Assembly (NCBI GenBank): GCA_037178675.1
Contig: JAYMGJ010000380.1
Coordinates: 62,001 to 126,000 of the forward strand
Source: Scleroderma bovista
Lineage: Eukaryota; Basidiomycota; Agaricomycetes; Boletales; Sclerodermataceae
Length of the DNA stretch: 64,000 bases
Direction of reading: 5' to 3'
The first letter of the stretch is position 1, and the number at the start of each line of letters is the position of its first letter. Positions 10,612 to 35,315 of this stretch are shown piece by piece. The translations under genes and the position numbers were made by a program. A model generated the notes under the pieces. It saw only the letters and a list, made by a program, of their open reading frames with translations, searched no databases and had not been told where the DNA came from.

Positions 10612-10875
10612 TTATGCAGCTGCATCCATTTGGGTATCCACCCCATCACCTACCAATGCATCAAGCACACCTGGGGGTCCTGGGGCCAAGGACACATCAG
10701 ATGATGTTACCACAATGGTGGGAGGGGGGAGTGTAGGAGTGTCCACGACCATTGTGGCATCTGAGAAGGTATCAGTCTGGAGAGGGCAAGGAGGTGGCGC
10801 ATAATCTTCATCAGCACTGGAGTTGGCCAACCATGGGGAGTGTGGATCATCCCCAGTTGGACACCAGAGGGTGAT

Positions 10876-13196: not shown

Positions 13197-13722
13197 ATCA
13201 TCCCTTCCCTTCCCCTTATCCACCAGCTCTGTCACTTCCTCCTCTCCGTCCATCTGGGTGTCTTCCATTGCTGCTGGAAGCACTCCACCATCCTGAGAAG
13301 GCTGACCATGGTGGGACCACAGATGGTCAGCGACCTTCTCCAGAGGGCACTGTAAACGTTCCGGCCACTTTGGCCACTCAGTAATTCCCTCATTTGGATC
13401 CTTGAGGTACTGGTCGAGGGCCATGAGCATAGTTGGAATGCTCAAACTGTGGGGTACATCTCCCACTACTGCTCTAATGCGGTTCTGGCAGGCATCAGCT
13501 AAGGTAGACCAGTATAAAATGACAACTTACCAACTGATTCCATACATCCCGCTGCACCTGCATCCACAAGGCCATATCTTTTGTTTTCTTAATTGTTGCG
13601 ACCGTGGTGATAATGATGGATGTGGCATCCACAATGATTTTGGCTGGCATCATAGGAGTATCAAATAGACCAGAAATGTCAGATGTGGAGGCTACTTGGG
13701 TAGTGAAAGTCTGAGGAGACAT

Positions 13723-14563
13723 GGCAGAATGAAACAGAGGGTGATTGGAGGTGGCAAGCAAGGACACAGTGTGGAATCCTCCCGGTGATGGTGAATATTT
13801 ATTATGGTTACGTCATCAAGGGTCTAGTACAGCCGCGGTGTCAAACCGGACAGCGGTATGTCACACCGCGTGGTAATGACAGCCATGTCAGCATTGTTAG
13901 CCTAGAATGTACCAGAAGCCTGTCACATGTCTGGAAATCAATATGTCCAATGATTGTACATTATTCCTCTGCAGTATTGTACTGAATAAACCTGATAGAA
14001 AAGAGTGAGGCTCATGAATATATAAATTTGATTAAAACACTTGCACTTCCATTTACCGCGGGTAAATGACATATACTTAAGACTATCGAAATTACAATGA
14101 CAAATTGTGGAACTCCACCAAGAGTGAATGCCCAAATCCCATCAACAATGTGAAGTTAAACATGTCCAACCTGAGTCCACTGCGCCGGTCACACCTGTGG
14201 CTCATGTGGTAAATAGTAGAATTTGACTGCCAGGGCCACCAAATTGTGAATAAGTAAAATCCTCAAATATGTACAATTATACATATAATACACCCAGCTA
14301 TCTGCCTGGATGATAACATTTTGGCATATTGCCCTTGATATTATACACAATTACCGTGGATGATGCCCTGTTACACCCTAAATATGGGATAGTGGATGCA
14401 TTGTAAATACATTCCAGGCTAGATTCCACCAATGACATCACACAGCTCATTGTGCCCATGGGAAATGTCTTATATAAGCCAGTCTATTCAATATATATTT
14501 AATCTGAACCTGTCCATCCCAGCCATTGCAATACCTCTTCCCTTGTTCCATCTATAATAAACC
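13723..14563. promoter_or_regulatory. Divergent intergenic region between two TE-associated genes
   Basis: 841 bp between two genes reading away from each other, so it should hold both promoters. A TATATAAG box lies near 14471-14478, about 90 bp before the ATG at 14564. A GC-rich island with CCGCGGT, CAGCGGT and ACCGCGT words lies near 13831-13875, and TACCGCGGGTAAA near 14055. No ORF is recognised. Confidence 0.4.
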
Positions 14564-15476
14564 ATGAGCGGGCAAAGGAATGTGAGATTCATAGATGATG
14601 GTGCAGCACACTCAGGTACGTCTGTAGTCTGCTCAAACCGACTGGCAAAATTATTTCCATCAGCTTTATTCGGTAGCCCAGGATGGATACCACCAAACAG
14701 AAATGTTCCATGAAGTTTGTATCTCTCTGTTGATGTTTGGCACTGCTAATCTGAGTGTGGCAGCGAGTAATAATAGCACTGAAGGGTCTCCACCGCAGAT
14801 TCAAGCAACCACGGCTGCCGTGATGGTAGTGGACACACAAATTTCCACTAGTCCTTCTCCAAGGTCTCAGAGGCATTCAGGTACATATTTATTCTTTTGT
14901 CTTTTCCATAATGCATGTCATGTTTGCAGGTAGTGATATTAGCACAAGCTGGTCTCCAACCTTCCATAACCGCAGCTGCGACCAAGTCTCTGGGTATGTA
15001 TTCCATTTATTGGCTTTATCACACCTCATAATATCTTTTCAGTGAGTACAAGTAGCACAAGTTGGTCTCCACCACAACTCTGGCCGTGTATGATCCAGGG
15101 TGCCTCGAAGTTGGCACACAGCACCAGTCCAACCCATACACACACCCACGGTATCACACCTAACACTATATTACGAGACATATCGACACCTCTATTGGTA
15201 CCCAAAAGTCCCTCTGAATGCTCCATCAATACGGACACGTCCAATGACAGTGGTAGATGGAGTCCACCTCCACAAAAACCCTGAGAAATATTCTGCCCTG
15301 TATCAACACCCCTCTCGCCTCTCACACCATCATCCATGTCGGTGTCGCCACACCCTGAATCAACTATTGGTAGTGATACTGACAGGGAAGGAATTTCACA
15401 GAAGGACCTATGGCCAAGGGTTATCGGCACCAGTCCAACAACCCATAGTAGAGTGCTGGAGAAAGGAATGGTGCGG
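14564..15476 (+). pseudogene. 5' half of a Ser/Pro-rich TE-associated gene, cut by repeat B
   Basis: Starts at ATG 14564 (MSGQRNVRFIDDGAAHS). Short exons follow, separated by likely introns: GTACGT after 14613, GTACAT to TTTGCAG at about 14881-14930, and GGTATG to TTTTCAG near 14992-15043. The exons encode Ser/Thr/Pro-rich text with a repeated SDISTSWSPT / STSSTSWSPP motif. One in-frame TGA lies at 15282-15284. The frame is open at the repeat boundary (reading through codons 15468-15476) and continues exactly, after one 4-bp TSD copy, into the reverse complement of 31793. The 3' half of this gene is therefore annotated at 31304-31793. No function is recognised. Confidence 0.6.
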
Positions 15477-17573
15477 TGTGAGTCAAAGTGTGGATTTGGG
15501 TCAGAGTAATAACCCAAACACAACACCAACAAAGGACTACAAAAATGTGCGAGTGGTGGTTTACCTCCATGGTGTCCAGAGAGGATATGCTGAGGAGGGG
15601 GAAAGGGGATCTACACCAACAGGGTGATGCAGACGGTGATGCAGGATACTCCTGGGGTACAGGAGTAATAGAAGACGAAGGGGATAGGGGTCTGGACTCT
15701 TCCTAAAGCCTAGGAAGTGTCAAAGCGGGGATTGGGTTGACTGGGACTGAAACAGTGATACTACACCTAGAGGTTGGTGCAGCAAAGGGGCAAGGGGGCT
15801 CCTGACGTCCAGAAGCAATGGGATATGAAGGATAGACAGGCTAGACTCCGCTTGAGCCTAGAGAAATACTTGGACTTGAATAGATTGAATAAAACTTGAA
15901 TATCAGAGTCTTTAGACCTTCACTGAAGCCTACAAGACTCAAAGAGCTGAGGGGATACTGACTGAGAGAGTCTGAGAGAGGGATAATTTCGTGCAATTGG
16001 GTCTTTTTCACTGGGCTGAGCCCAGGGGTTTAAATACATGGGGGGGCACAGCATTAAAGTACAAAAAGAGAAGGGAGTAAGCAGAATTTGTCAAGGATTG
16101 GTAAGGGATTGGTAAGAGCTTTGTAAGGGGTTTGTAAGCGATCAGTAAGCAAGGGATAAGCAGGAATGAGTAAGCATAGGAAGCATGAATAAGCTGCTGA
16201 GTAAAGGAATGAGTAAGCTGCATGACAAGATTGATTGGTAAGGGAGTGAGTCATCAGCTGAGTAATATACCAAAAATGCGAAAGGGATAGAGTAATACTG
16301 ATGACAAGAGAGCATCAGTAAGCAAGGGATGAGTCACTGCACAGCAGAAGAAGTCATTGATGCACAGCCTAAGAAGTTTGATGGGGGGCTGTGTACCATC
16401 AGGAATTTGATGGGACAACAATGGGGAAGATCTGAGATTAATAGGGGGATTGATCCGAGACAAAACAGCCACAAGAAGGGTACCAGGGGTCCAGAGGTCT
16501 TTTTGGGGGGTCAGCATACACTAAGGTATAGTGCATGTGTTCTAGCGCCGCTGAAGCGCAACCATGGGCTCCCTTGACGAGCTCTCTTCTGGGAAAGAAC
16601 AAGAGAGAGTTCTTCTTCCTAATAGCACTATAAAGTGGGGGGAACAACTGTCATGGTGCTGGGGGACGTCGTCTGAAAGTAGGGAAGCGGATAGAGTATT
16701 GAATTCAACGCATCCAGGGAAGCAAGACAATCGACAGAGGAAGATGGACATGGCAAGTATCTGGGAGGAAGAGACCATAGGCTGAGGGCTCAGGGGACAC
16801 AGAGACGACCAGAGAAGACTTCTCAAGCTTGACAATAGACCTAAGATGACCAAAGTACATCCTTGACACAGGACTGACGAGGAGAACACGCTGACCGAGA
16901 ACGAGAGGGACTGAGGGAGCAGGCTGCGAGGATATGTGCCAGGCAGTGCACGGGAACTCTGGGAGAGGCTGTCCTAAGAGCAGGACATAGTGGAGATCTG
17001 CAGCAATAGCGGAGAAATGATCCAGAGAAAATACGGACTCCATAGTGAGCGATGAAGCGAACGTCTGGATTGCAGGGGGAATATCTCCGTGGGAAATGAA
17101 CAGATTTGCGTCGGAACTTGACAGGCAGATAGACCACGCTCTAGGCTCTGACGGTATAGTCACGTGCCTGATAGCTTCAGAAACGATGGAGCTATTCAAA
17201 ATATCGGAATGCCAGCACTGGGTGCCTAAAAATGATGTTTGGGCGCTAAAAATCATATCTTCTCTTTCTCCTTTGTTTCTCCATCAATTCTTCAGCTTCT
17301 TTGATCGTTCTGGTATGGGAGTTGGACTGCAGACGTGTGCATTCCTTTCTCATACCACAATTGATGTTATTCCTTCAGTTTCTTCTGCTTCTTGGCGGTC
17401 CTTGTGCGATAGATGACTGTCTGCATTGGCATTCGTCTCTCGCATCAGGATAGTCTTCTTGTGCGATAGATGGCTATGATGAGGGTCCGTCGTGCTTATC
17501 CTTCGCATAAGGATCATTCGATATAGGCGTTATCTTCCATGTTCACTGTACCAAACCTGTTTGGTGCGTGACA
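15477..17573 (-). repeat. Repeat B copy 2 (2097 bp)
   Basis: TGTGAGTC to GGTGCGTGACA, uninterrupted. Left flank GCGG (15473-15476), right flank CTGC (17574-17577). These do not match each other, but each matches one flank of copy 3 (31794-33891), as expected if the two inverted copies recombined. ORFs within it are shadows repeated in every B copy. Confidence 0.85.
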
Positions 17574-17767
17574 CTGCAGATGTGTCTAGAGGAAGACAGG
17601 GGTTAGTCCTGAGGTGGAGATGGACGTAGTGACCGGAGTTGAGCTGGAGTACAGCTATGGGGCTGGAGATGGCCGGACTAGATCTAGAGTTGCATCTATG
17701 CCTAAGGAGAGGTCAGGTGGGCCAGGGTTAGACCAGAGTTGTGACTGGGAAAAGTATGGATATAACA
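17574..17767 (-). repeat. LTR fragment, family C (5' end of the LTR)
   Basis: Matches 45925-46109. On the minus strand it begins TGTTATATCC (variant of TGTCATATCC) and stops at repeat B. The missing remainder of this LTR is at 33892-35315. Confidence 0.8.
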
Positions 17768-19265
17768 GCCGCCCATTGAGGCAACTACCTCTGGCATTTC
17801 AATGCACGAGTTCCAGACTTTTGTAGCTCCAGATGTTCCCATGCCTGCAACTGCAGATGATGCCATCACACAGGTGACACCAGATGGTACAGCAAATGAG
17901 CCTACTCAATCTGTGTTGTCTCCACCTGCTTATTCTCTTCTGCTCCCTACTGGATTTGACATGCCATGCCCATCTTGAACACATCATCTACCATGTTGTT
18001 ATCGGGACGAACTTCCAGAATCAATGGTGCCTGCAGTCCCTACATGCTCTGTAGTAGACCCGCCTTCTCTTCCGTGCTGAGTTATTCTCTATGTTTTTGA
18101 TTCATTCCAGACCATGTTCAGTAACTTTGGAATTGCTTGTGATTACCGCCATTGCCCTTCATATGATCCAGACTCCCTTCTTTCTGTTCTTGATCTGTCT
18201 GACCTGCCTTGTTGCCATGAAGTTGACTCAAATGGAGCCCATGACAGCTGTGCTGATCACTATGGGCCTACTGGAGAGCATGCACCGCCATGGCCTCGGG
18301 CAAATATGTCAATTTGGCAGTTAATGACATGGAAGCTGACTGGGAGCAGTCAGAAGTCAAGTGGTGAAGTAACACATCTTGTTCATGACATGATCCAAGC
18401 TGTGGATTTCAACATAGATGATTTGGCCAACTTTGATGCATCAAAACAGTTGAAATGACTGGAAGATAACATTACTCCTGATTCAAACATGGCTTTTGAT
18501 CGTGATGGCTGGAGTGAACCCACAGTGGAGATTATGATCCCTACCCCTGAGAAACAGAAAAAGAGAAAAGGTCACTGCTTTCTAGTCCCCAGTCTCATGT
18601 ATCATTCCTTGATGGCCGTGATCAAGACTGCATTCTCTGAGCCCATAGTGAAGTGGTTCCATCTCACACCATTCAAATGCATCTGGAAATCCCCATTGGT
18701 GAGACGACCCTAGGTGAAAACACCAAGGACCTGACTACTCGCTAAAGCTCTGAAAGGATAGGATGCAAGATGCTAGGGAAAAGACCAAAGATGAGCTTGA
18801 ATGGGGAGCCTCTGGGTGTTGGATTGCACTGTATATATACTACTCTACATGAGGGCTACACGAGGCTATCCACAAGGCTACGTACTGTGCAATGCTATGC
18901 TAGTGATGTCATAGTGGAGCTAAGGCTATGCGGGATGACATCAAGGGAGGCAGCATGTACAGCATGAGGTGTGCGTCTAGACTAGGTAGATAAGATACGG
19001 CTGTACACTAAGATAAGATTAGATAAGATAAAAAGTTGGTCCATTACAATTGGGTCAAGAACAGTGTGTGTTTGATGAATTATATTCATCTGATGCATGG
19101 AATAAGGCACACGATGAGATTCAGAAGCAGAGGCACACTGACAACTGACAACTGGAAAGAGTAATAGCGGGCTTGATGTTATGGTTGGATTCAATGCAAC
19201 TAACACAGTTTGGACACACAAGCACATGGCCTATCTATCTTTTCTTTGGAAACCTGTCACTTCAG
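17768..19265 (+). pseudogene. Plavaka-type transposase, N-terminal half, degenerate
   Basis: Recognised by the order of conserved segments of this KDZ-related DNA transposase: a YRDELPESMVPAVPT segment near 18006-18050, VILYVFDSFQTMFSNFGI and HCPSYDPDSLLSV near 18085-18190, the DGWSEPTVEI segment near 18503, then WFHLTPFKCIWKSPLG and DELYSSDAWNKAHDEI on either side of a solo LTR. LERVIAGLMLWLDS and TSTWPIYLFFGNLS follow. Stops (for example after DMPCPS near 17976 and TGA 18457-18459) and a frame change near 19190 disable it. A GT splice donor follows near 19266. The catalytic C-terminal part is not found. The zinc-finger N-terminus is probably the piece at 35316-35594. Confidence 0.75.
18700..19048 (-). 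repeat. Solo LTR, family E (349 bp)
   Basis: TGAGACGACC to CCATTACA on plus, the same family as the LTRs of the Gypsy at 38774-45106. Perfect TSD ATTGG at 18695-18699 and 19049-19053. It lies within the Plavaka coding sequence; removal joins the SPL and GQEQ codons in frame. Confidence 0.93.
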
Positions 19266-19474
19266 GTAACCACTTTTGATAAGCATTTAGCCTGAATAGT
19301 TTAGTATCACAATTCAGCCAAATAGCCTATAAAACCATGGTCATCCAAGGGAAGGTCTGCTTCCCTCCTGGGATGGGCCATTGTTTTTATAATCCCATCC
19401 CAGGGCTGGTCCATGCCATATGGGATGGCCCATGCTTGCTTGTGGTGTCAGGGGTCCTCATACAGTTATTTTCA
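19266..19474. other. No gene recognised; contains an imperfect inverted repeat
   Basis: GGGATGGGCCAT near 19371 and ATGGGATGGCCCATG near 19420, with CCCATCCCAGGGCTGG between them, form an imperfect hairpin. No TSD was identified, so I do not assign an element. Confidence 0.35.
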
Positions 19475-19482
19475 TTCCTGCT

Positions 19483-19896
19483 TAGTGTTTTAAAGTCCAA
19501 TCTGGTCTGGTCTATTGCCTCTTTCTCTTTTTGGAGGCAACCAGACCATGACTAGTTATTTCAGATCTTGCTTGGACCACAACTGAACCAATAGCAACTG
19601 GTTGCATGTGGTTGCATAGGGCAGTTGCAACCAGTTTCTTGCACAAATGAAGTACTCTCTTGATTTGTGCAAAAAAGGGGATCTAAAATTAATTTTAAGC
19701 ATGCAAAACAGGAGTCCTTGGTCTTTGTTTTTTTTTACTAGATTTATGTATTATGTGTGCTAGTTAGTCACCAACCAATAGCCCTCAACTGGTCTCAACA
19801 AAGACTGGCTGTGACTGGTTTGCAACAGGTTTCTGGTACCAGTCCAGTTCAGTTGCCAGGCTTTTTGCAGTCCTAGGACCAGACTTTTAAACACTA
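19483..19896. mobile_element. Small non-autonomous hAT-like element (414 bp)
   Basis: Terminal inverted repeats TAGTGTTTTAAAGTC at the left and TAGTGTTTAAAAGTC (read inward) at the right. Perfect 8-bp TSD TTCCTGCT at 19475-19482 and 19897-19904. The 8-bp TSD and TAGTG terminus fit the hAT superfamily. There is no coding capacity. The interior shares sequence with 21285-22372. Confidence 0.85.
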
Positions 19897-19904
19897 TTCC
19901 TGCT

Positions 19905-20849
19905 TACTCCAGATTGTTTTGTATTTTCTTTCCACACTGCACATTCCCTTGCTGAAAATGGGTTCTGTGATATTGCAAAACCATCTTCATGCTTTATTTG
20001 CTTCTCTAGTCTGGTGACTTTTACCTTCTTCTTCCTTAGTACTTGGGTGATGGACAAAACAATATGGGGTATAAAAGTGAGCATGATTACTTCTAGAATA
20101 TTACATGACACTTCTGTGAATAGCGCAATCACCACCATCTATTTAGTTGTTACAAGTGCTCTACCTATGGACAGGTGTAACATAGCTATAGTAGGAGAGA
20201 ATGACATTGGCCAAACATTGACAGCACCTTTTGGGTGTTGGAATGTGAGAAGATGCAGCTGGCTCCCTACCAAATCACAGTTGAGGGATAAGGTTCTACA
20301 TTCTGGATCTGGATGTGCATCCACCTTGGTGTATATGTATAGATGTGGACTTTGCAAATTTTGGGACATCTTGTGATTATGTCAGGAGGCTGCACAAATG
20401 TATAATTTTTGTCCATACTGCTGACATACCATGTCAAAGCTATCCAAAAGACAGTTATCCAAGCATGAGCAGTGATGAAGATTGTAATGTTCTACAAGTT
20501 GCTCCTCCCTTTTGCACTTGTTTTTTTTTTGGACAAGCAATAATAATGTGGAGAAACTGGCTAGTTTATTTCTACAAAAATGCTGAATTGGACACCTTGT
20601 TAGATGGCTGGTCTGAGGAAAAATGGTGTTACATCCTATCTATCTTGTGATGGGGTGTGTGGATTCCATAAACTCACTGGTAAACCTGTTTCAGGTGGAA
20701 GACCTGGTGAGCCTAATACACAAACATGCATGAGATGCTCCCATTTGCAACAGAAGTGGACGTTGAATGTTGACCAAACCACTTGTTGAGAACACTACTG
20801 TATCACACATAACCTAATACTCCAGGAGTGACCTTGTTAAACAAGGTGA
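19905..20849. other. No gene that I can identify
   Basis: Short ORFs on both strands are under 125 residues, with no domain I recognise. The minus-strand ORF 20139-20369 looks compositionally protein-like (NCDLVGSQLHLLTF), but I cannot assign it. It may be decayed TE sequence. Confidence 0.3.
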
Positions 20850-20999
20850 TAATATATAGAGGGGTGCTTGCACAATCAGGAGGTGGGTGTGTACCAACAG
20901 ACTTGGCCCTGCCACTTGCACTTGAACTCTAAGCAAGCCACTACATTACTACACAAATCCACCCACCTCCTGATAGTGTGGGCACCCCTCTATATATTA
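20850..20999. mobile_element. MITE with about 40-bp terminal inverted repeats (150 bp)
   Basis: The left arm, from TAATATATAGAGGGGTGC, and the right arm, ending GCACCCCTCTATATATTA, are near-perfect inverted complements over about 40 bp, including CAGGAGGTGGGTG and its complement. The termini are AT-rich, so the TSD (TA or a 3-bp type) cannot be fixed. No coding sequence. Confidence 0.75.
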
Positions 21000-21284
21000 T
21001 TCCTAGCATCCTTAGATAGTTTTGGGCCAGTTGAAGTTACTCTGTAATTTTATAATGGGTGCACAGTCCTTACAAGGCTGCTCAAGAATGACAATATGAA
21101 AGAATGGTCTGAATTGAAAAATATCTAGTATGGGGCACCCTAGCAGCTGAAAGTATGATTCTATTACTGCAAGATTTAGCCTGATATCTAGTGTTTTCAG
21201 CAAGATATCACTTGCACAAGTTTACCATATTTCTGAGTCACTTTTGCTCAGAAATGCCTGACTGCTGACCATTTTTCAAACAGC

Positions 21285-22372
21285 AATAAAAGTCTGGTCC
21301 TAGGACTGCAAAAAGACCAGCAACTGAACCAGACTGCAGTTGCTGGACCTGAGGGTTGGGTGATTGGTCTGGTTGTGATTGCATGAGCTTGTGGGAAAAT
21401 ATAAAACTAGTTGCAGGGCTACATGAAGATCAAGTACCTCTGTTTTTGCACAAATCAGGGGTTCTTGGTTTGCATGCTTAAAATTGGTTGCAGACCCTGT
21501 CATGACCATGTCCAACTCCATATCTTATCCAGTTACTCCAGTTGCATCACAGCTCTCCAGCTCAACTCTGGTTGTTTGCAACTTACTCTGGTCATGATCA
21601 TGCAGATACACCTCTGTTAAGTATGACCCTTGGGCTAGTCTCTATTCAGTCCTTACTACACTTCCCTGTCAACCCTGCTTTGCTTCAAGTTCTCCACATC
21701 TTGTTATATCCTATGCCTTGTATCATTTTCACCAGACCTGGTTTATTTTACCTGGACTTGACTTTATTTTCATCAGACCTGACCTAGTACTTCCTCTGGT
21801 TATCCCTTGTCTGCCCTTCAGGGTGTTTACTTGTCACCATATGTACTTGTCCCTAGTTCTTACTTAGTATAAGTACTCTGTAGTTTATCCTGTACTCTCC
21901 AATCTGAAATCATCTAAGTTACTACTCCTGCTCCTTGTCTATCTCCATCTGATCAGAACCTACACAAGGGATCAACACTTGTTGTCCTTGTCATTGAATC
22001 CAATCAGTTGCAACTCTGGCCCAGGCTAACCTCTTCTCAAACCTCTGACCTTATCTCTCATCTGTTTTCATCCAGGCTTGACCAGACCCCATACTGGAGT
22101 AGACCCAGACTTGACAGATCCCCTGTTTTGTGCAAAAAAGGGTATCTTGATCTGTGTGCTGAAAATTGGTTGTGAGCCTCCTTTTCTGTGCAGATCAATT
22201 TCAGACCCCTTATTTTGGGCAAATCAGGTAGTCTCAATTTGCATGGCTAAAATTGCTTGCAGACCCCCTAATTAAAAACTGGGTGTGATTGGTTTGGTTG
22301 TGGTCTGAGAAATATCAAAATTGCTGCAACCAGTTGGGGTCTGGTTGCCTCCAAAAATGGGAACACTACACT
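21285..22372. repeat. Second hAT-like MITE copy, split by a solo LTR
   Basis: The left part (from AAAAGTCTGGTCC near 21288) and the right part (to GGGAACACTA near 22370) match the ends and interior of 19483-19896, including GCAAAAAAGG and GCATGCTTAAAATTGG-like words. An LTR of family A interrupts it. The left terminus is degraded, so I give no TSD. Confidence 0.6.
21498..22116 (+). repeat. Solo LTR, family A, old copy (619 bp)
   Basis: TGTCATGACC to GACTTGACA. The flanks GACCC (21493-21497) and GATCC (22117-22121) are a TSD with one C-to-T change. Nearly every CCGG of the young LTRs reads CTGG or CCAG here, an unusually clear case of CpG loss. Confidence 0.88.
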
Positions 22373-22689
22373 TTGATGTGCATGGAAGCTTGCCATCATG
22401 GTTGAGCAGGAAAGGTCCAGTTGGCATGACACATGAGGTGTGAAAAATGACTGATGACCATGATGAGAGGGGATGCTGATGAGGGATAAAAAACTATGAT
22501 GACAGTGATGAGAGTCATTGAGAAATCATTGCAATAGATGTCTGCTGATAGCCTTGATTTTGTGATGGGACATCCCACTTGCACATAAAAATACCAATGA
22601 AATGTCCCATTGTACCAGGCTGTGATGAATGTTTCATTTTTATGTAGTGATGTGTCAAGAACTGAGTCACTCTAAACACCTCCACCCAC

Positions 22690-23946
22690 CTCTGCCTGCT
22701 TTCATGTCACTCACAATGCTGGTGGGGTTGAGGACATGCCAGGCAAAAGAGGACCAGCTCCCCTGGCCCAGGGTCTGACGACCCTGCATGAAATCCCTGC
22801 CACTTGAGAAGTTTCAGAAGTCTCCATGCCCTGGACACTCTCAGAAGCTCCTTGTACCTATTCTGTCATGGCTACATCAGTACTGCGATAATGAATGGGC
22901 TACTTTACTCACCGGCACAGAATGCGGGAATGCATTGGATGTCACTCTCTGCAGCTTACTATAGTAGTTCATCGCAGTTGTTCCACATTCCACATTATCC
23001 CATATAAAATCATCCAGCACTTGGAAGCTAAATGCGGACCTGGGACTCTTGGTTGTTGCAGGGAAAAGGCTGGCCATCATGAGCTGTAGATGTGAATCCT
23101 TGGAACCACTGCAGCTGCAGTACCAAATATCACAAAAGTGCACTCCATTTGTGTGCACCAAGGTTAGACAACCTCTGTCCCGTGGTCTAGTCAGATGAGG
23201 CGGTCGCACATCATCCTCCATATCTTCCCAAGCCTCTTCATCGTCGCTTGCAATATTCACGTGGCTATATCCCCCTCTGGGACAAGGTTTTCCACCGTGG
23301 CCCAAGTGCATCACAAAACCAATCTACTCTATTAATTATCATGTTGATATGGTGAAAGAAATGACACACCAGGCAAAGAGAGAAGTCCTCAAAGAAGGTT
23401 CCAGTCCATCTCTGAATCTGATGGAAGGGACTCTGCTGGTGTGCATCCAAGCAACAGTTACTGCAGAACATTGGTCTATGAGCACACTCTGTGCACCTAA
23501 ATGTCGCATCCTTTCCACAGCACATGCAGATCTTTGATTCTGTGGGTGACTCCATTTCCAGGAGCACCGACAAATATCTGGCCTTGAAGGGGAGCCAGTC
23601 TTGAAGATAGTGATCCTATGATTGGATGAAATAAACTCTTAAATTAAAGGGGGATGTGGAGCAATCTAACCTGGTTCCTTGGCAATCTACATGCTTGCAG
23701 AGGTGGGTCATCTATTGCAGCATATGCCTCTACAGGCTCATCAGGAAAGAAATTGATGTGCTCTAATGCAGATGAACCAGCCTGAGTTGGGGATTGATTG
23801 TCATCAGCTCTTTCAATGCGTGCCTTCTTTCGGGGTGGAGCCTTGACCATCTTATCCTTGGATTGTCTGCCTGATCTTACTGTCCTCCATGTCACCTGCA
23901 TTACAGGTGTAGAGGGTCCAGCTTTAACTACCTTGGACTTCCCCAT
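22690..23946 (-). pseudogene. KDZ-family transposase, N-terminal part
   Basis: Minus strand, start ATG 23944-23946 (MGKSKVVKAG). Exon 1 runs to about 23671, a 55-bp intron follows (GTTAGA to TCATAG), and exon 2 begins near 23615. Exon 2 holds the cysteine-rich segment CMCCGKDATFRCTEC, then CSNCCLDAHQQSPFHQIQRW. The next exon (from about 23330) has CPRGGYSHVNIA and LTLVHTNGVHFCDI, then FQVLDDFIWDNVECGTTAMN. After an intron from about 22913, LLKLLKWQGF and LVLFCLACPQP end near 22700. This matches the CxC2-like cysteine cluster and N-terminus described for KDZ transposases of basidiomycetes. The catalytic region is absent, so it is a 3'-truncated copy. It is divergent from the 24374 gene. Confidence 0.82.
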
Positions 23947-24373
23947 GATGTTCTCTGGACGAAAAGCTCACAGAAAGGATTGCTTTTGACCTCAAAATGC
24001 CTCATTGCAATGCCTTGAACTCGGACAACTTCAATGATTGCATTGGCATCCTCGGTTCCCAATCTAGTTCAGGACAATCTTCAGGTACAAATGAAACCTT
24101 TCCAAATATGGAATGAGATCTTGAGATAGGCAAATAAGGGTCATGAAAATGGACCCTGAAGAAATGGACCTTTCCATGTATGGTATAACATTTGCAAATA
24201 TTCCCAGAACCTTTCCAAATAGGCCTTGGGTGCCATGTTGTATTTGCACATAAATGGGAAGGGAGGATCAAGGGTCCCTGTGACATGGGAAGGAGGTGAC
24301 CATGGGACCTTTGATCAACAACCTGGTATGTGCACCAGAACTTAGGAATTGCGGAAAAGGTTCCACCTCAGTC
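23947..24373. promoter_or_regulatory. Shared upstream region of the KDZ and companion genes
   Basis: 427 bp between two divergent ATGs (23946 minus, 24374 plus). It contains GGTACAAATGAAACCTTTCC and similar AT-rich words, but no TATA box I would defend. An ATG at 24299 would extend the plus-strand gene; I prefer 24374 because the text in between is not protein-like. Confidence 0.35.
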
Positions 24374-27300
24374 ATGTCTGATTCTGAATACAGCAGCAGC
24401 AACAGTGGTGGGCACTCCAATGGCTCAGGCCAAGGCAAGACCCCCCTCCAAAAAGATGAGGTCGCAATTATCCCGGGGAAATTGGAACAGTGGATGGGTG
24501 CTGATGCAACAAAGAGGAAGTCTATTTTCAAGGACATTGCGCACACTGTTCAAGGGCTGGAGGCCAACAGGACCCTCAAGAGTAACCAATGGGTGGTCAA
24601 GAAGAAGGTGAGTGCTTCCCCCGATTTAGAGGTGTTATCATATTGTGTCTTCATAGGCAATTCAGACGTGGCTCTATAACCACAGTCGTACCTGGAAGAA
24701 AAAGCAACTTGTCAAGTATGGCCAGAGATGGAATACCCGCATGGTGATAGCACACCAACAGAAGGAGAAATTAGATTCTCTACTGAAAAGAGCTGGGCAT
24801 GCACTGGGATCCAACGGGTATATGAAATTTTATCAACAGGCAGTGGGGAAGGTGATCAAGAAAATGAGCCCAAAGCAGATGGAGCAAGCAGCTGGGACAG
24901 TGAAGGAATGGAACAACAGCCACCCCCCTGCAGAGATTCAAGCAAAGTGAGTGTATTATTCCATTCTTGAATTTCACTCAGGTGTGGTTAGAACTGTGGA
25001 AGCAAAAGGCCGGAAGTTTGCATGGGAGTTTTCAAAGGAAATGTGGAAGCAATGTGGTGCAAGAGTGGTGGTGATGGCGGCTTGGAAAGATGCTGCAGGG
25101 CATATTATGTATGGCCTGTAGGTGCAGTCATTGGGGGTCGATACTTTTACTAACACCAGCAGGCATGACTTCAACGATGAAATAGGTGATGGAAAGATAT
25201 TTGATGGGTGGGACAGGGTAGAGAGCAAATGGGAGCGATATGCCCATGAGGTGTTTGGGGTGCAGGAAGATGCTGGTGAACCTTCCGAGGACCAGGACCA
25301 GGACCAGGTGCCAAGAAGAAAGCCCCACGGAGGTAAACATTGCATGTGGATTAACCTCCCCTCCAATGAGGACGGGACGCTGTCCATCCCTGTCATTCTC
25401 AATATGAATGCACAAGACAAGAAGGATGTTGTGCGGGCATTCATTGCTTTTCATTATGGTAATGTAAATAAGATCTGGAAATTAAAGACTAATGGTGTCA
25501 CACAGGAAAGGCTTGTGACTGCAGAAATGTCACTGTTCCCTGGGCTGCCATCACAGTAGACCGCGGCATATATATCTCTGGGCGGTATTGGCCAACCAAT
25601 GTGGCATTCAAGGAACCCTCTAGGCTTACCAACGAGGAGGCCACCACCATATTGGAGTGGTGGCAAGACAGGCAGGTGACTGATCCAACTGATACCTTCA
25701 GGTTCAAGAGATGGCTGGAGTCTGATGGGTCAGCGCAATCTGCGGTTGCCCAATCCCACAGCAGTTCTGCAAAGAGGCATGTCAAAGGACACAGGAAAGG
25801 TAAGGATAATGTTATTAAATGGGAAATTACTAAGGCATGATTAGAACCTTCGGCTGATGAGGATGAAGAGGAGGAGGATGTTGAGGATGAGGATGTTGAG
25901 GATGAGGATGTCAAGGATGAGGATGAAGATGAATTGCCACGGCAGCAGAGGGCCCACGGCTCTGCAGTGGAACACTCCGGCCAAAAAGCGCCAGTCAAGG
26001 TTCGCAGGAAAGGTAAATACAATCATATCAAATGCACAACTACTGAGGCATTGTCAGAACCTGCCATCAACAAAGATGATGACATACAAGCAGATGAAGA
26101 GGTAATGCCACGGCACATGGGGCCCGCGGGTCCCTCTGGGGCTGGAGGCCAGTCAAAGGACCTACACAACGGCGCAAATATTCATGGTAAGGATGTCCCT
26201 TCATGTGTCATAATATTGTTGATGTATTTCAGGAGGTTCTGAGCCATGATGCATGGGTGGTAAAGGACACTCAAAGGGAAAACCTCATGAAAAAACTGCA
26301 GACAGTAAGTGGGAAGGCGTACTACCCTAGGAAGGTACTCTAACGAACATGCCAAGACTCCGCCTTGGATGAAAGGGACAATGGTACCAGAGGTGGTCAC
26401 AATATCAAGGTTGGCCCACCCAACAAGGCATATTTTATGCCTGCTGGATCCGATCAACATAGGGATGTCAAACAGGTGAAACAAAAAGGTGAGAAATATA
26501 TTATATGACGGTGAAGATTGACAAAAAAAAACAGACCATATGCATCATGCACCCGCAGATACAATGGTAAATCATCTCATGGTTGTTGCCAAACCAAAGC
26601 CACAGGTGAAGACCAAAGGTTCGTCCATTCCTATGTGGTCACACATTATTAATATGTAAATCTTTTATATATTGGAAGACAAACAACCCGCAGAAATGGG
26701 TGGGACTACTGCTACAATTCAGCAGGAAAACTTGGCACCTTCTGTTCCTGCAGCTGGCCATGGAGCAGCTAAACCTGCAGCCAAGACAAGAGGTAAGACT
26801 ATTTGGTGCCATTACACTGTCAATGGATTTTATATATTGTATGAATTCAGGCAAGCAAGGTGCACTCCCGGGAGAAAATACTGCTGTGAATAGGACAGAC
26901 ACTGCAGCTGCATCGGTCACCACGGCTAAGATGGCAGCCAAGACAAAAGGTACCAGTATTCACATACATGCACGCATCCCATATATCCAGAGAAGACAGC
27001 TAAAACTATGTGTAAGGGTCCTTCCAAAACATCAACTGACCAGCCCCATGCAGCTCAGCCAGGGGCCAAGATGGCAGGTAAATTCATTTGTGCATCTTAT
27101 ACATATATATGATATATTTAAAAGAAGAATTACCAGAGCCCAGAAAGAGTACTTCCGAAGTGCAGGCAGAAACTGCGGGCCCTTCCTCCATTCCCGGTGA
27201 CGAGGCACCTCCCGGTCATTCTGTACCGGACCCTGCAAATGCAGACAACATTAATGGTGTTCAAAGTCACTCTGGTCCACTCTTTTCCGCTTTGTTTCTG

Positions 27301-27514
27301 GCTCTGTTCCAACTCTGGAAGCTCCAGGTTTCTACATGAAATTTAAACTCCGGAGTGACAAATGCAGTGCTCGGCGTTGACCGGGACCATCCGCTCCATC
27401 ACACACAACTTTTATTCGTAGAATCAAGTAAATTTTCATAGAATGAAACAACAGATATTCATAGAATGAAATAGATTCCAATCAGATATCTCCCATCTCC
27501 TGCTGAAGCCCTCC

Positions 27515-29043
27515 ATGCCCCGGAAATCCCTTCGACAAGAATTGTATGAAGAGCTTGACTATGTGGCCTTAAAGATCGTGGATTTGAGACGGAAGAACAC
27601 AATCACCTATTTCAATGATGATCTGGACGATGAGTTCTCATCGGACGACTCACTCGAACCCATCATCATCACCCCCCCTCTCCTATATCCCCGATTCTTC
27701 CTTCAGACCTTGATTCTGGCTCGTTATCCTCTTCCGACTCTTCCGACTCGTTTCATGACCAAGACTTGTGATATAGCTGCCTCTTGGATGTGATACAGGC
27801 ACTGCACGATGAAACGAAGCATGCTCGTGTGTTGAACCAGCTGCAAGAGCAGCCACTCCGTGCACCACAGTTGCATCTTCTGGAACACTTTGCTGAATTT
27901 CACCCTCATTTGTTCCATAAAAAATTGCATGTCGATCCCACAGTTTTCGACTGCATTTTAGATCACATCAGTGATCATCCTATTTTTCAAAGCAGGTCAA
28001 ACAACCTACAGCTCCTGGTTGCTGTGCAACTTGCAATATTTCTCAATCGCGCTGGCCACTATGGGAATGCAATTTCACCTGAAGATATTGGACAGTGGGC
28101 AGGTGTCAGCGTGGGTTCGGTAATCAACTGCACACACCGGGTCATGGTTGCGATCCTTGATCAGCACGATGAGTTTATTGATATCCCTTGCGCAGCTTCC
28201 GAAGATGCAGAGGAGGCGAGGAAGTTTGTCGAAGAGCGCACTTGCCATGGATGGCGGGGTGGAATTTTTGCAGCGGATGGAACAACTATTAACCTGCACG
28301 AGAAGCCGTCAATATACGGTGAAACCTTTTATGATTGGAAATCGAGGTACTCCCTTAATTGCCAGGTGTGTTATACCTGTTCCTACATCTCTGTAAATTC
28401 ATGTGGCACAGTTGGTTGTTATGCCGCATAATTTGCTCATTGTTGATTATGGCCTTGGCCATCCCGGAAGCGTCCACGACGCATATGCATTTCAGGGGAC
28501 GTACCTGGCGAGGAATCCTGGGCATACGATCCTCCAGGATCATTGGATATGGGCAGATAGCGCATACCCATCTCACACATGGTGTGTTGTCCCCTTCAAA
28601 ACACCACGGACCGCTCGCCTGTCACGAGCTCAAAACTTGTACAACAAGTACTTATCGCGGGTGCGTACAGGCTGGTTGACATCGGATGGGCCTCCTTTTG
28701 ATCAGTGCTGAACTAGGTCTGAGTCTGTGTGGAACATGCTTTCGCAGCCCTGAAAGGCCGGTTCCAGTCTCTCCGTGAGCTTCGTCTACAGATACGCACA
28801 GAACGTGACTTACAGATTGCGGTATACTGGGTGGAGTGTTGTCTCATCCTCCACAACATGATCATTCGTTTTGAGAGTGCGCTTGGAGTAGAATCAACCA
28901 CTGGCTGGGCAATGGATGAGGGGAGGGAACCAGATCATCGCCTGAATCCTGTTTTGGTGGATGTTCCTGAAGGGTCGCCTGGTCAACAGTTTCGTGGGGA
29001 ATTGATGAGGCGCCTTTTTACTCACCTTAACATGCTCGAATGA
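27515..29043 (+). pseudogene. Harbinger DDE transposase (DDE_Tnp_4 type), frameshifted N-terminus
   Basis: The N-terminal segment from ATG 27515 (MPRKSLRQELYEELDY) goes out of frame at the C-run near 27670-27677, and the continuing frame has a TGA near 27761. From 27784 the protein is continuous: a helix-turn-helix-like part (QLAIFLNRAGHYGNAISPED), then FAADGTTINLHEK with the first catalytic Asp. After an intron (about 28366-28411) comes LIVDYGLGHPGSVHDAYAF with the second Asp. After a second, less certain intron (about 28660-28710) comes VEHAFAALKGRFQSL with the catalytic Glu. The C-terminus is at 29043. All three acidic residues are present. The frame damage at the N-terminus makes this copy probably inactive. 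Confidence 0.85.
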
Positions 29044-29228
29044 TGACATATACCGCCAATAGAAAGGGCCAATGGTAGTTATATTCAGTATACAGTCCTG
29101 ATACATCAGTGAGAAAAAAAACATGCACAACACACCACATAGCGTACACAACCGAGAACGTAGACCAGTACCAACAGCACAGGCAATGAGATAGCAATAC
29201 AATGAGATGCGATGAGTAGATGGTTCAG

Positions 29229-31027
29229 CTAATTGAATGACGAGGGACCTGAAGATGAGCTGGGCTGTTTGCTGCTTTGCAACTCAGCAAGCTGGACCTG
29301 CAATTGCAACGCCTCAATCTGCTTCAAGTATGCATTTTCCTCGGCTTGCTTGAGCTTGATCTCCAACTTCTTCAGCCCCTCCTGGCACCTGAATTCAGCC
29401 TCGGCATTTTCACGACTGAAGTGGATTTTGTCCCGCTGAAGGGAAATTTCTTTGTCCCTGATGGCATAGTTCATGCGAGCCACATAACGTCGAGTACGAT
29501 CAGCAGATGCCTCCTCTCTCTCCTTGCCAAAATCACTCAGCTTATCATAAAGTTCTGCCTTAACGCGCGAGGCTGCTCCAGCACTGCCCTTCTTTGTGGT
29601 AGAGAAAGCCGGGGAATCGGATGAGAGATGGGATGGGAGACTTGAAGAAGATCGGGCAGAGCTGGGGGGTCGGGCATATGGACTTTGCTGACGAAATGCA
29701 GTGCAGCTGTCATAAGAGGGGGTTCTTTCTTTGGGCGCAAGGTTAAATGTCGTGGAGGGTGCCATGTTGTCCCGAGGCTGAATGGCCTAGATGTGCAGTG
29801 CTGAGTATGAAAGAAAATAATATGGGTGCGAGTGACATACTGGCAATGCATCCTGGCGCTGGGGAGATAACATCTCCACATCTCCATTGAACGGTTTGTC
29901 GTCGTCCATTGGTGGGTTGTCACCACCATCAAACTGAGCAGGAGAGACACATGGCTCGTCATTCCCAAAGTCCATCTGCATACCATCGTCGACACCCTCT
30001 TCATTGAGACCAGAACCGTCACCTCCTTTCTCATTGCCAGGTCCCTCTTCATTCTGTTTGGCTTGACCAATATCGTCACCATGAGATTCTTCATCTTCGC
30101 CATCACGAGGCTTCTTCTGGTGTACAAGGGACGCTAATTTCTCACCGCGATTGATATTTTTGTTGGAGGAGGAAAGTTGACTGTCAAATGAAGGGATACC
30201 GCGCCAGATTGCATCAAGATCATCGAAAAGGGGGAAAGTGCGGTGGATCTCGGCTATGACAACAATCAGAGACAATCAAGCAATTATTCTGGACATACCT
30301 TGTATGTTGGCATCTGGGCCACCAGGCAATACACCACTCCCTGTGTTCTTGAGGCGTCCACGAGCTTCTCGATATTTCTGCTTCAACCTGATGGAAAAGA
30401 GTTCATAAAGACGATCCAAATGATGGAAGACACTTATGTTCCCAATTGATTGCCCAAGGAGGCTGAGAATTTCTCAGGATGTGACCCGTATAGCTCTGCA
30501 TATACGTCATCATGTTCGAAGATGTGCTTAGCAATAGCAGCTTGCACATCTTTCTTGTTCCTCCCGGATGGTTTATCATTTGGGGAGATTGCAGGGGTAG
30601 CACTTGAGTTTCCTGCATGATCATGGAAAAGGATGTGGCGATCAGCGGGGTGAGATACAAGCCAAGCAACAAGCTTCTCTGAGCGGGTGGGATCTGCATC
30701 CCAGCAGATATTGGGAGGGGATTTCAAGGTTACTCCTTGTACAGGAGGGGGCGCAGCTGGGGGTTGGGGGATGGGTTGAAAGGTAGTATCCGAAGATTGC
30801 AGGACTGTGGACTGTTGATGTCCTTTTCCTTTGGGCCTACCATGCAAATTTCCCCTCCCCACAGAAGACTGAGGGGGCGCTGTTGACTTTGGAGGTGCTT
30901 TTGAGGCATTGTTGGTGGTCGACATGACAGTAAGTTGAGTAGGAGGCTGCTTGACTAGGGCTTGCAGCCGTGCTGAACGACGAGGGGGTCTGATGGGAGG
31001 CATCTTTTTGTAACTCCGACAGGCCAT
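29229..31027 (-). CDS. Harbinger partner protein, Myb/SANT-like plus coiled coil
   Basis: Minus strand, first ATG near 31027 (MACRSYKKMPPIRPPRRSARLQ). Exon 1 (to about 30440) carries a basic, Pro-rich leader and a Myb/SANT-like segment (TRSEKLVAWLVSHPADRH, KKDVQAAIAKHIFEHDD). A short exon near 30296-30388 (LKQKYREARGRLKNTGSG) completes that domain. After an intron comes HRTFPLFDDLDAIWRGIPSF and a long acidic Asp/Gly-rich region. The last exon (29229-29776) is Ser-rich, then a coiled coil (KKLEIKLKQAEENAYLKQIE). In PIF/Harbinger elements such a protein binds the element ends and recruits the transposase. The donor after exon 1 is not canonical, so that boundary is uncertain. I see no internal stop in the exons. 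Confidence 0.7.
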
Positions 31028-31303
31028 TGCCGACCAACTCAAAAATTCCAGAACACTTCCAGAGCGGTTCCAGCACCACCCAGCGCCACCCTGAGCGCCA
31101 CTATTGTGCCCATGGTTCTGGACCCACCTACCCCCATGCCTGCACAGTGTCAATCCACCTGGAATAAGAGGCTTCCACCACGGCTAGAGGATTATCTGGA
31201 TGACCGCATTCCAAAGAGATACAGAAAATAATTATCATACGTGTATGTACATAGCCAAGAGAGAGATTATTGGTTACAAGTGCACATATTCAAGGGAATG
31301 TAA

Positions 31304-31793
31304 TTACAACATTGTAGGATCTAAGTCCTCCAAATCATACATCCCACTGTCAGAGTCTGATCTGTCACCTCCATCAATCCTCTGAAGCCTCTCTCTCATT
31401 TCTGCATACTGTGCCCATCTATTAACAAGCCTTCTCCATTCCCGTGTCTCTTCCACCAACCTGTCCGCATATTGTTTGTACATTGCGACCATTGGTTTGT
31501 CATAGAGGTTGTCCAGTTTGGTAACTCTTCCTTCCTTCAGGTGAAATCGGGCAGCTATTTTGCAGGCTGTTGTTACTATTTCATTGTAAGTATCAATATA
31601 ATATTATCCAACAATAACTCACATTCATGCCGTGGCTCATTGAACCTTCCATTGTAGACATCCATCCTGGCCATACTGTAGACCAAATGCCACCATTCCT
31701 CTATGAACCTGTGAGTTTACTGTATTCAATCCAAAGGCAAATGTACCCTCTGCAACATTTGGACAGGTCACCTCATCCGATTCGGTTTCCCGC
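31304..31793 (-). pseudogene. 3' half of the gene starting at 14564, displaced by inversion
   Basis: Read on the minus strand from 31793 the frame is open at the repeat boundary (RETESDEVTCPNVAEGTFAF). It passes through one or two short introns (near 31700 and 31560-31610) into an aromatic segment (EEWWHLVYSMARMDVYNGRF), then KIAARFHLKEGRVTKLDN and a charged helix (MYKQYADRLVEETREWRR), ending in a Ser/Asp-rich tail at 31304. Joined to 14564-15476 across one GCGG copy, the codons are in phase. No function is recognised. It ends about 70 bp from the convergent stop at 31231. Confidence 0.6.
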
Positions 31794-33891
31794 TGTCACG
31801 CACCAAACAGGTTTGGTACAGTGAACATGGAAGATAATGCCTATATTGAATGATCCTTATGCGAAGGATAAGCACGATGGACCCTCATCATAGCCATCTA
31901 TCGCACAAGAAGACTATCCTGATGCGAGAGACGAATGCCAATGCAGACAGTCATCTATCGCACAAGGACCGCCAAGAAGCAGAAGAAACTGAAGGAATAA
32001 CATCAATTGTGGTATGAGAAAGGAATGCACACGTCTGCAGTCCAACTCCTATACCAGAACGATCAAAGAAGCTGAAGAATTGATGGAGAAACAAAGGAGA
32101 AAGAGAAGAAATGATTTTTAGCGCCCAAACATCATTTTTAGGCGCCCAGTGCTGGCATTCCGATATTTTGAATAGCTCCGTCGTTTCTGAAGCTATCAGG
32201 CACGTGACTATACCGTCAGAAAGCCTAGAGCGTGGTCTATCTGCCTGTCAAGTTCCGACGCAAATCCGTTCATTTCCCACGGAGATATTCCCCCCGCAAT
32301 CCAGACGTTCGCTTCATCGGTCACTATGGAGTCCGTATTTTCTCTGGATCATTTCTCCGCTATTGCTGCAGATCTCCACTATGTCCTGCTCTTAGGACAG
32401 CCTCTCCCAGAGTTCCCGTGCACTGCCTGGCACATATCCTCGCAGCCTGCTCCCTCAGTCCCTCTCGTTCTCGGTCAGCGCGTTCTCCTCGTCAGTCCTG
32501 TGTCAAGGATGTACTTTGGTCATCTTAGGTCTATTGTCAAGCTTGAGAAGTCTTCTCTGGTCGTCTCTGTGTCCCCTGAGCCCTCAGCCTATGGTCCCTT
32601 CCTCCCAGATACCCCCCATGTCCATCTTCCTCTGTCGATTGTCTTGCTTCCCTGGATGCGTTGAATTCAATACTCTATCCGCTTCCCTACTTTCAGACGA
32701 CGTCCCCCAGCACCATGACAGTTATTCCCCCCACTTTATAGTGCTATTAGGAAGAAGAACTCTCTCTTGTTCTTTCCCAGAAGAGAGCTCGTCAAGGGAG
32801 CCCATGGTTGCGCTTCAGCGGCGCTAGAACACATGCACTATACCTTAGTGTATGCTGACCTCCCAAAAAGACCTCTGGACCCCTGGTACCCTTCTTGTGG
32901 CTGTTTTGTCTCGGATCAATCCCCCTATTAATCTCAGATCTTCCCCATTGTTGTCCCATCAAATTCCTGATGGTACACAGCCCCCCATCAAACTTCTTAG
33001 GCTGTGCATCAATGACTCCTTCTGCTGTGCAGTGACTCATCCCTTGCTTACTGATGCTCTCTTGTCATCAGTATTACTCTATCCCTTTCGCATTTTTGGT
33101 ATATTACTCAGCTGATGACTCACTCCCTTACCAATCAATCTTGTCATGCAGCTTACTCATTCCTTTACTCAGCAGCTTATTCATGCTTCCTATGCTTACT
33201 CATTCCTGCTTATCCCTTGCTTACTGATCGCTTACAAACCCCTTACAAAGCTCTTACCAATCCCTTACCAATCCTTGACAAATTCTGCTTACTCCCTTCT
33301 CTTTTTGTACTTTAATGCTGTGCCCCCCATGTATTTAAACCCCTGGGCTCAGCCCAGTGAAAAAGACCCAATTGCACGAAATTATCCCTCTCTCAGACTC
33401 TCTCAGTCAGTATCCCCTCAGCTCTTTGAGTCTTGTAGGCTTCAGTGAAGGTCTAAAGACTCTGATATTCAAGTTTTATTCAATCTATTCAAGTCCAAGT
33501 ATTTCTCTAGGCTCAAGCGGAGTCTAGCCTGTCTATCCTTCATATCCCATTGCTTCTGGACATCAGGAGCCCCCTTGCCCCTTTGCTGCACCAACCTCTA
33601 GGTGTAGTATCACTGTTTCAGTCCCAGTCAACCCAATCCCCGCTTTGACACTTCCTAGGCTTTAGGAAGAGTCCAGACCCCTATCCCCTTCGTCTTCTAT
33701 TACTCCTGTACCCCAGGAGTATCCTGCATCACCGTCTGCATCACCCTGTTGGTGTAGATCCCCTTTCCCCCTCCTCAGCATATCCTCTCTGGACACCATG
33801 GAGGTAAACCACCACTCGCACATTTTCGTAGTCCTTTGTTGGTGTTGTGTTTGGGTTATTACTCTGACCCAAATCCACACTTTGACTCACA
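31794..33891 (+). repeat. Repeat B copy 3 (2098 bp)
   Basis: TGTCACGCACC to GACTCACA, uninterrupted. Left flank CCGC (31790-31793), right flank GCGG (33892-33895); see copy 2 for the swapped pairing. The CCAAACAGGTTTGG palindrome lies just inside the left end, and the GCTTACTCATTCC-like tandem motif near 33115-33300. A TTTAAA box lies at about 33334-33339. Confidence 0.85.
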
Positions 33892-35315
33892 GCGGTCTAA
33901 CTCCGCCATGTTGAACCTGTACCTACCACTTGTCACTACTCTGGTTTCAGTCAGGCCACTCCCTTGGTCTTGTCTGCAATGTAGCCCAACTCTGGCTGGT
34001 ACATCCAACTCCAGCTCAGGTCTGCTCCTGTTCCACTCCACTCCTTCTGTCAGGTCCACCAATGGCCTTGGACATTTCCATGTCCAACTCCAGACCTTCC
34101 TCCAGCTATTCTGCCCTTCCTCCAGCTGTACACTCCCTCTGCTCATACACTCCCTCTGCTTGTACACTCCCTCTGCTTGTACACTCCCTCTGCTCTTGCA
34201 CTTCCTCTGGTTGTGCACTTCCTCTGGTCCCACTTCCTCTGGTTCCACTTCCTCTGGTCCTTAAGTCCACCTGTGACCCTTACTTGTCCTCTTCCAACCT
34301 AGTTCCCTTTACCTACTTGTCCCTGCATCTGCTCCGTCGTCCCTGTAATCCTAGTTCCCCATTTCTGCTTCCACTCCAGTTTATTTTCCTGTCCCTGCTT
34401 TATTTTCCTGTCCCTGCTTTATTTTCCTGTACCTGGTTTATTGAGACGACCCTAGGCAAAACACCAAGGACCCGACCACACACTAAGACTCTGAGAGGAT
34501 AGGACACAAGTATCTAGAGCAAAGACCCAAGATGAGCTCGAATGGGGAACCTCTGGGTGCTGGATTGCACTTTATATATACTACTATACACGAGGGCTAC
34601 GCGAGGCTATCCATGAGGCTACGTGCAGGCAGAAGGCTATGTAATGACATCACTGTGGAGCTAAGGCTATGGGTAATGATGTCAAGGGTGGCAGCGTGTA
34701 CAGCACGAGGTACAGGTCTAGACTAGGTAGATAAGATAGAGGCTGTATGCTAAGATAAGATAAGATAAAAAGTTGGTCCGTAACATTTATTTTCCTGTCT
34801 GCTTCTGCTCCATCCCTTGTCCCGACTAAGGTGTTTACTTGTCATTGTATGTACTCACCCTAGTTCTCATTACTATATAAACTACTGTACCCTGGCCTAG
34901 TAGATCCTTAGATCAAATCTTGACTAAGATACTCCCCACTCTGTACTACCCACTATGCTCTCCTAATCCACCTATTCACCTGAACTCCAGCCAACTCCAG
35001 CCTCCATCCTAGCAAGTCTCCTACTCACATGAGGGCAAAAGCCACCTCTGTCCCAGACTCAATGCTAGACCTCTCAGGACTTATCCCACCTCTGGGATGT
35101 CCTTCCCTCTGGACAAGCTGCGCTCAACTCCGGACCACTTTCCCATGGTCCAGACTTACTCCCTGTGCTTCACTAGTGCTCGGACTTCTTTCATTTGACC
35201 AAGACTTGACTCTCCGCACTAACTAGCACCTACTAGTGTCTGGACTTACCTCCTCATTAGTTCCCTGCACCCCTGGACCTCCTAGTAAGATTGTTGAGGA
35301 GAACCGGTCTTGACA
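33892..35315 (+). repeat. LTR family C, 3' part, CpG-depleted, carrying a solo E LTR
   Basis: Continues the C LTR whose first part is at 17574-17767 and ends GGTCTTGACA at 35315. It includes tandem CACTCCCTCTGCT / CACTTCCTCTGG units (34125-34260) and TTTATTTTCCTGT units (34380-34440). Compared with 37435-38655 most CCGG sites are CTGG or CCAG. Right flank GCAGT. Confidence 0.85.
34442..34785 (-). repeat. Solo LTR, family E (344 bp)
   Basis: TGAGACGACC to CCGTAACA on plus. Perfect TSD TTTAT at 34437-34441 and 34786-34790. It is inserted in the TTTATTTTCC tandem of the C LTR; the empty site is visible at about 38062-38085. Confidence 0.94.

Follow-up and report, generated by a model that had tools for sequence, protein, structure and literature searches.

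A 14.2-kb segment reversed between two inverted long terminal repeats of one retrotransposon family in Scleroderma bovista

How can a transposon gene and a long terminal repeat (LTR) each come to lie in two pieces, far apart and on opposite strands, beside two repeats that are themselves inverted relative to each other? This question is raised by positions 62001-126000 of contig JAYMGJ010000380.1 (C380) of Scleroderma bovista, a stretch of 64,000 nucleotides hereafter called the window, whose positions are used as coordinates throughout. The assembly that was searched comprises 51.8 Mb in 850 contigs. KDZ-associated domains and a dense nest of transposons fit a mushroom-type basidiomycete. The repeats are two LTRs of a family designated B, and the segment between them runs in the opposite direction to that seen in uninterrupted copies in other parts of the genome. 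The preliminary description of the window had proposed such a 14.2-kb inversion, and both elements cut by it are indeed found whole in uninterrupted paralogues, exactly at the predicted bases. The positions and inverted orientation that it gave for the two LTRs are also exact, as judged from the sequence and by BLAST. The inverted arrangement consists of:

15477..17573, minus strand: left LTR of family B, solo, starting with TGTCACGC and ending with ACTCACA on the minus strand (TG...CA ends)
31794..33891, plus strand: family B LTR on the right, in opposite orientation to the left one
17574..31793, no strand assigned: inverted segment of 14,220 bp; each of its ends lies next to the corresponding other half in paralogues that are uninterrupted

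The two LTRs, which are 98.9% alike by BLAST and 99.05% alike over gap-free columns, form an 18.4-kb unit together with the interval between them, and homologous repeats of family B, inverted to each other, thus sit at both breakpoints. These breakpoints are exact to the base, with 0 bases missing and 4-bp duplications as the sole gain, which is what a crossover within the LTRs predicts.

The left breakpoint falls within an element, E1, of the Kyakuja-Dileera-Zisupton (KDZ) type, whose gene is split between two distant parts:

9550..15476, plus strand: left part of E1, interrupted at 10876-11469 and 12576-13196; colinear with contigs C173 and C731, and from 12320 with C385
31103..31793, minus strand: E1 continued, with the second half of the split gene; adjoins 15476 in paralogues

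Paralogues of this breakpoint were searched for with a left-half query (13000-15476) and a right-half query (29500-31793), 40 candidates being scored for each, and the figures that follow hold among the matches listed. Individual bases were read across the site at 11 paralogous places, namely a first set of eight (C385, C731, C173, C267, C604, C59 twice and C54) and three later ones (C305, C175 and C563), the latter having matched the right half without a listed left half and therefore being checked in case the homology ended there naturally. At nine of the 11 places, which are all eight of the first set and C305, the sequence to the left of 15476 runs directly into the reverse complement of 31793, free of any LTR and with the 4-bp target present once, point changes aside. 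C175 and C563 also pass the site free of the LTR, by about 15 bases, and then depart from the window sequence on the left. The break of these two copies (L071 and L072) is common to both and is followed by the same unrelated sequence. Homologues ending naturally at 15476 had been named beforehand as the finding that would speak against an inversion; 0/11 places show such an end and 0/11 carry the LTR, C175 and C563 having their own break about 15 bases further left.

Colinearity with the paralogues extends well beyond the site, leftward to 9550 (C173, C731) or 12320 (C385) and rightward through 31103, then from 27252 to 22725 (C385), 24785 (C173) or 25383 (C731). In more distant copies (C375, C288, C212, C697 and C554) the two halves are adjacent by coordinates, and in C343 a gap of about 1.3 kb lies between them; further matches of 68-70% are confined to the inner part of the right half and have no bearing on the site. 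The open frame ending at 15476 had been thought to continue in phase into the reverse complement of 31793, and this holds when one copy of the target-site duplication (TSD) is counted, as rough spliced open frames of 435 residues in C173 and 353 residues in C731 pass through the former insertion site. The protein predicted from an uninterrupted paralogue has 0 homologues at E <= 0.001 among 7996 candidates scored.

The right breakpoint is found in a second element, an LTR of another type, called C, which is likewise cut in two:

17574..17768, minus strand: first 195 bases of LTR C, cut off from its remainder, as uninterrupted copies elsewhere indicate
33892..35315, plus strand: rest of LTR C, interrupted by an insertion at about 34431-34785

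In uninterrupted copies of LTR C, the reverse complement of 17574-17768 is joined directly to 33892 and onward. Among the copies of LTR C that were examined, five are of this kind, one in C731, where the bases were read, and four in C385, C777, C94 and C380:107.4-108.1 kb, where the junction was placed by coordinates; the suggested joining of the start of LTR C to its remainder at 33892 is thereby confirmed. The C731 copy reads ...ATCCGCGGTCTAAC..., where the window reads ...ATCTGCAG, then the LTR of family B, then GCGGTCTAAC.... The inversion can be read, exactly to the base, from a single genome thanks to the surviving intact paralogues of E1 and of LTR C. A TSD of LTR C itself was also considered across the inversion (GCGGC/GCAGT), and was discarded since an agreement of 3/5, with transitions only, is too weak to count.

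The short duplications made by the two insertions of family B can be followed across the breakpoints as well:

15473..15476, plus strand: GCGG, left TSD of the left LTR; present once and free of the LTR in 8/8 paralogues of the first set, with point changes in some, and LTR-free in the 3 later ones
31790..31793, minus strand: GCGG, the matching TSD of the left LTR, now displaced, from flank reading and paralogues
17574..17577, minus strand: GCAG, displaced TSD of the right LTR insertion, being GCGG altered at its CpG; the uninterrupted C731 copy reads CCGCGG once
33892..33895, plus strand: GCGG, second TSD of the right LTR, from flank reading and paralogues

As assembled, and with both LTRs read in the same orientation, the flanks are GCGG/CTGC for the left LTR and CCGC/GCGG for the right one; when the interval is turned back, they become GCGG/GCGG and CCGC/CTGC, respectively. 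The swap of TSDs claimed in the preliminary description is thus complete for the left LTR (4/4) and partial for the right one (3/4), and the TSDs alone are ambiguous. The target of the right LTR is taken as GCGG, with GCAG resulting from a later CpG transition, because the uninterrupted copy in C731 reads GCGG. By themselves, the TSDs are weak proof of an inversion, because the outer flanks of the 18.4-kb unit are identical too (GCGG/GCGG) and family B prefers NCGN targets. When the partners are shuffled, a 4/4 match is obtained in 11% of pairings (0.11) and a match of at least 3/4 in 50%, and a TSD match within family B carries modest weight. It is the empty sites, and not the TSDs by themselves, that prove the inversion. 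Several TSDs, at 17574-17579 in the window and at other LTR flanks, differ by transitions at CpG sites, as cytosine methylation would give.

Family B is abundant in this genome. The first 23 bases of its LTR (the TGTCACGC start) have 859 genome matches with at most 2 mismatches (436 forward, 423 reverse), and the LTR is about 2.1 kb long and ends with ACTCACA. We aligned 37 full-length copies, comprising the studied pair, a third copy in the window and 34 fetched ones, the incomplete L043-L046 being excluded. The flanks were tallied on 32 copies, after exclusion of the studied pair and of L024, L037 and L039, the last three of which have a common inner flank that we read as resembling a primer-binding site. 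Flanks are identical over 4 bp in 17 of the 32 copies, differ by transitions only in 6 and are unmatched in 9. We therefore take B to be a retrotransposon LTR whose targets are 4 bp long and centred on CG; some direct pairs of B lie about 9.5-9.7 kb apart. The nine copies with unmatched flanks (L022, L025-L028 and L031-L034) may carry the mark of distant exchange between LTRs, or of misjoins. An open frame of 157-192 amino acids recurs within B LTRs, at 32191-32664 (plus), 16705-17283 (minus) and 60285-60758 (plus), and a fourth B LTR, with two interruptions and the flanks GCGG and GTGG, is found at 5667-9168.

Within this family, the two studied LTRs are each other's nearest relatives among the 37 copies (99.05%, whereas none of the 35 others exceeds 97.2%), and they share 13 near-private variants, the second highest number of 666 pairs; by identity, they rank 34th of all 666 pairs. 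This closeness is compatible with gene conversion during the exchange, or with a common source. Some other same-contig pairs are very similar too: of those examined (n = 8, the studied one included), 4 stand at or above the 95th percentile, 2 below the 10th percentile and 2 between. The left and right LTRs differ at 23 alignment columns. Their differences are concentrated in the inner half, with 4 of 22 positions in the outer 1031 (p = 0.004), and the shared near-private variants are mostly in the inner half as well (12/13).

Recombination between LTRs in inverted orientation is established to invert DNA. In the case of the window, two elements of one LTR-retrotransposon family would have entered older transposons at sites 14 kb from each other and with opposite orientations, one hitting the KDZ-type transposon E1 and the other the C-type LTR. 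Both insertions would then have been reduced to solo LTRs, and a crossover between these LTRs, 2.1 kb long and inverted to each other, would have inverted the interval through non-allelic homologous recombination (crossing-over or template switching). Such an inversion would have swapped the inner flanks and cut E1, with its gene, and LTR C each in two. A single inversion with the exchange inside the LTRs would account together for the two cut elements, the exact ends and the exchanged flanks, and we consider it most probable that two independent LTR insertions were followed by one crossover in inverted orientation. We infer that the assembled order reflects the living DNA, that the events took place in the order given above and that the exchange was brought about by homologous recombination.

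Four observations weigh against this scenario. The TSD of the right LTR agrees at 3/4 bases only (GCAG/GCGG). No crossover point can be placed in the LTRs, as only the 23 columns mentioned above separate the copies. Four further inverted same-contig pairs had the flanks of both copies read (C274, C251, C645 and C796), and 0/4 show swapped TSDs, so that the flipped state concerns 1/5 inverted same-contig pairs, studied pair included; one of the C796 copies (L028) has unmatched flanks. Finally, the assembly yielded no second haplotype of the locus: the relatives of about 17770-18700 are 81% and 75% alike only, and 13000-15476 is whole on no other listed contig. This leaves room for a misassembly at the near-identical LTRs, in which the chromosome would be un-inverted and the assembler would have crossed from one inverted LTR to the other. 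Both breakpoints do lie at a 2.1-kb pair 99% alike, of a family with at least 859 ends in 51.8 Mb, some of the 850 contigs are apparently duplicated, and misjoins would also yield the unmatched flanks seen in 9/32 other LTR copies. However, neither the window nor any of the 73 fetched loci contains Ns, and the assembly resolves nested near-identical repeats. This suggests long reads, probably able to span 2.1 kb, and the 23 differing columns let such reads be phased. We consider an assembly artefact unlikely, though not negligible.

The same 9/32 copies with unmatched flanks indicate that exchange between distant LTRs may occur. In addition, the KDZ gene breaks off at 22725 and lacks its catalytic half, so that further rearrangements did take place here. 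On these grounds, the pieces of E1 and C could have been placed here by two separate events, either ectopic exchanges or gene conversions involving other loci; yet, in both elements, the pieces on the two sides complete each other exactly to the base. One inversion accounts for this, whereas two independent exchanges would not, and we regard such a coincidence as very improbable. The identical outer flanks could also be taken as the TSD of a composite, or fold-back, element, whose LTRs and 14 kb would have moved as one unit, the more so as several other LTR pairs are inverted too. Such a unit predicts that 15476 be joined to 33896 in empty copies, whereas 9/11 paralogues join 15476 to the reverse complement of 31793 and the copies of C join the reverse complement of 17574 to 33892; moreover, GCGG/CCGC being a common TSD of the family, an outer match is fairly often expected by chance. 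Contradicted by the empty sites, the composite reading was rejected, and its probability is close to nil.

Two insertions followed by a crossover between inverted LTRs raise the issue of how neighbouring LTRs of family B are oriented in general. A census was made on the listed positions of 336 B ends on 200 contigs (out of at least 859 ends), adjacent pairs being considered and apparent duplicates, recognised by equal spacing, dropped. Within 15 kb, 41 pairs are inverted and 16 direct (binomial p = 0.0013), and the counts are 30 vs 12 within 10 kb, 50 vs 26 within 25 kb (p = 0.008) and 64 vs 34 within 40 kb, these four distance limits not being independent. With duplicates kept, 51 inverted pairs face 19 direct ones (15 kb) and 61 face 30 (25 kb); with the studied pair removed, 40 face 16 (15 kb, p = 0.0018) and 49 face 26 (25 kb, p = 0.011). 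The first 100 places alone give 14 inverted and 6 direct pairs (p = 0.12). Such an inverted excess is as expected where LTRs recombine, and is counted in favour of LTR recombination. The number of inverted pairs could be raised by palindromic misassemblies, and C1 is a candidate for carrying one: the spacing of its LTR ends is palindromic (20479/8709/20479, with strands alternating). Spacings of LTR ends also recur between contigs (C8, C36 and C480; C21 and C139; C1 and C12), which suggests duplicated haplotype contigs.

One tentative, and rather doubtful, possibility is that these LTRs sort themselves by recombination, direct neighbours being deleted and inverted ones being kept while flipping the DNA between them. 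Inverted pairs could then act as reversible switches, and the pair of the window would have been caught in its flipped state. If this were true, such switches would reshuffle nests of transposons, and orientations would differ among nuclei or strains.

The probable LTR-mediated inversion in the window is a clear and instructive case of an ordinary, known kind of rearrangement. In work on Saccharomyces, dispersed Ty1 LTR elements are described as substrates of chromosome rearrangement (PMC3102749). The likeness lies in dispersed copies of one LTR family serving as such substrates; the difference is that two inverted solo LTRs here flip nested transposons, in a fossil arrangement that was not selected in the laboratory. 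REANNOTATE presents inter-element LTR recombination as an annotation problem, with duplications and dating treated and the detection of inversions given as future scope (PMC2672092). In both instances, recombination between LTRs of different insertions upsets the structure that a single element should have. Passages of the general and yeast literature also deal with LTR recombination (PMC3024322, PMC10787394, PMC3026039). The present locus shows how transposon genes become split to distant places on opposite strands, thereby misleading annotation, and the same flank reading could be used to gauge LTR-LTR exchange genome-wide.

The remainder of E1 within the inverted segment comprises two further features:

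27253..31102, no strand assigned: Harbinger-type DNA transposon (DDE_Tnp_4) inserted in E1; PF13359, E 1.3e-13 for 28397-28708; missing from E1 in C385, C731 and C173
22725..27252, minus strand: E1 continued; holds the region of the companion gene as well as the CxC2 domain of a KDZ gene (CxC2 at 22880-23323, minus strand; PF18803, E 8.4e-24)

When the paralogues are blasted back to the window, E1 amounts to about 9.9 kb, in the order 9550-10875, 11470-12575, 13197-15476, reverse complement of 31793-31103 and reverse complement of 27252-22725, of which about 5.2 kb, about half, is within the inverted segment. The stretch 27253-31102 is considered as a Harbinger-type insertion because it is absent from E1 in C385, C731 and C173 and has matches to DDE_Tnp_4, including a weaker one below the cut-off of Pfam; we take this domain to link it to PIF/Harbinger elements. 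The preliminary description had placed a KDZ gene, its companion gene and a Plavaka element in the inverted interval: the KDZ assignment stands, by the CxC2 domain only, whereas the Plavaka one was not confirmed, two open frames at 18081-18710 giving no Pfam match. CxC2, a domain associated with KDZ transposases, is what the E1 copy in the window shares with KDZ transposons; in the C385 paralogue, the KDZ domain (PF18758) follows the gene as well. No KDZ catalytic domain is found in the window copy of E1, which has CxC2 only, and the rest of the C385 gene (L070) has no match in the window. The window E1 is thus a truncated relative of KDZ transposons that stops at 22725, and its own TSD is not readable, its right end in the window being a truncation. 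It also differs from KDZ transposons in being cut by 4 insertions, at 10876-11469, at 12576-13196, at the left LTR and at 27253-31102.

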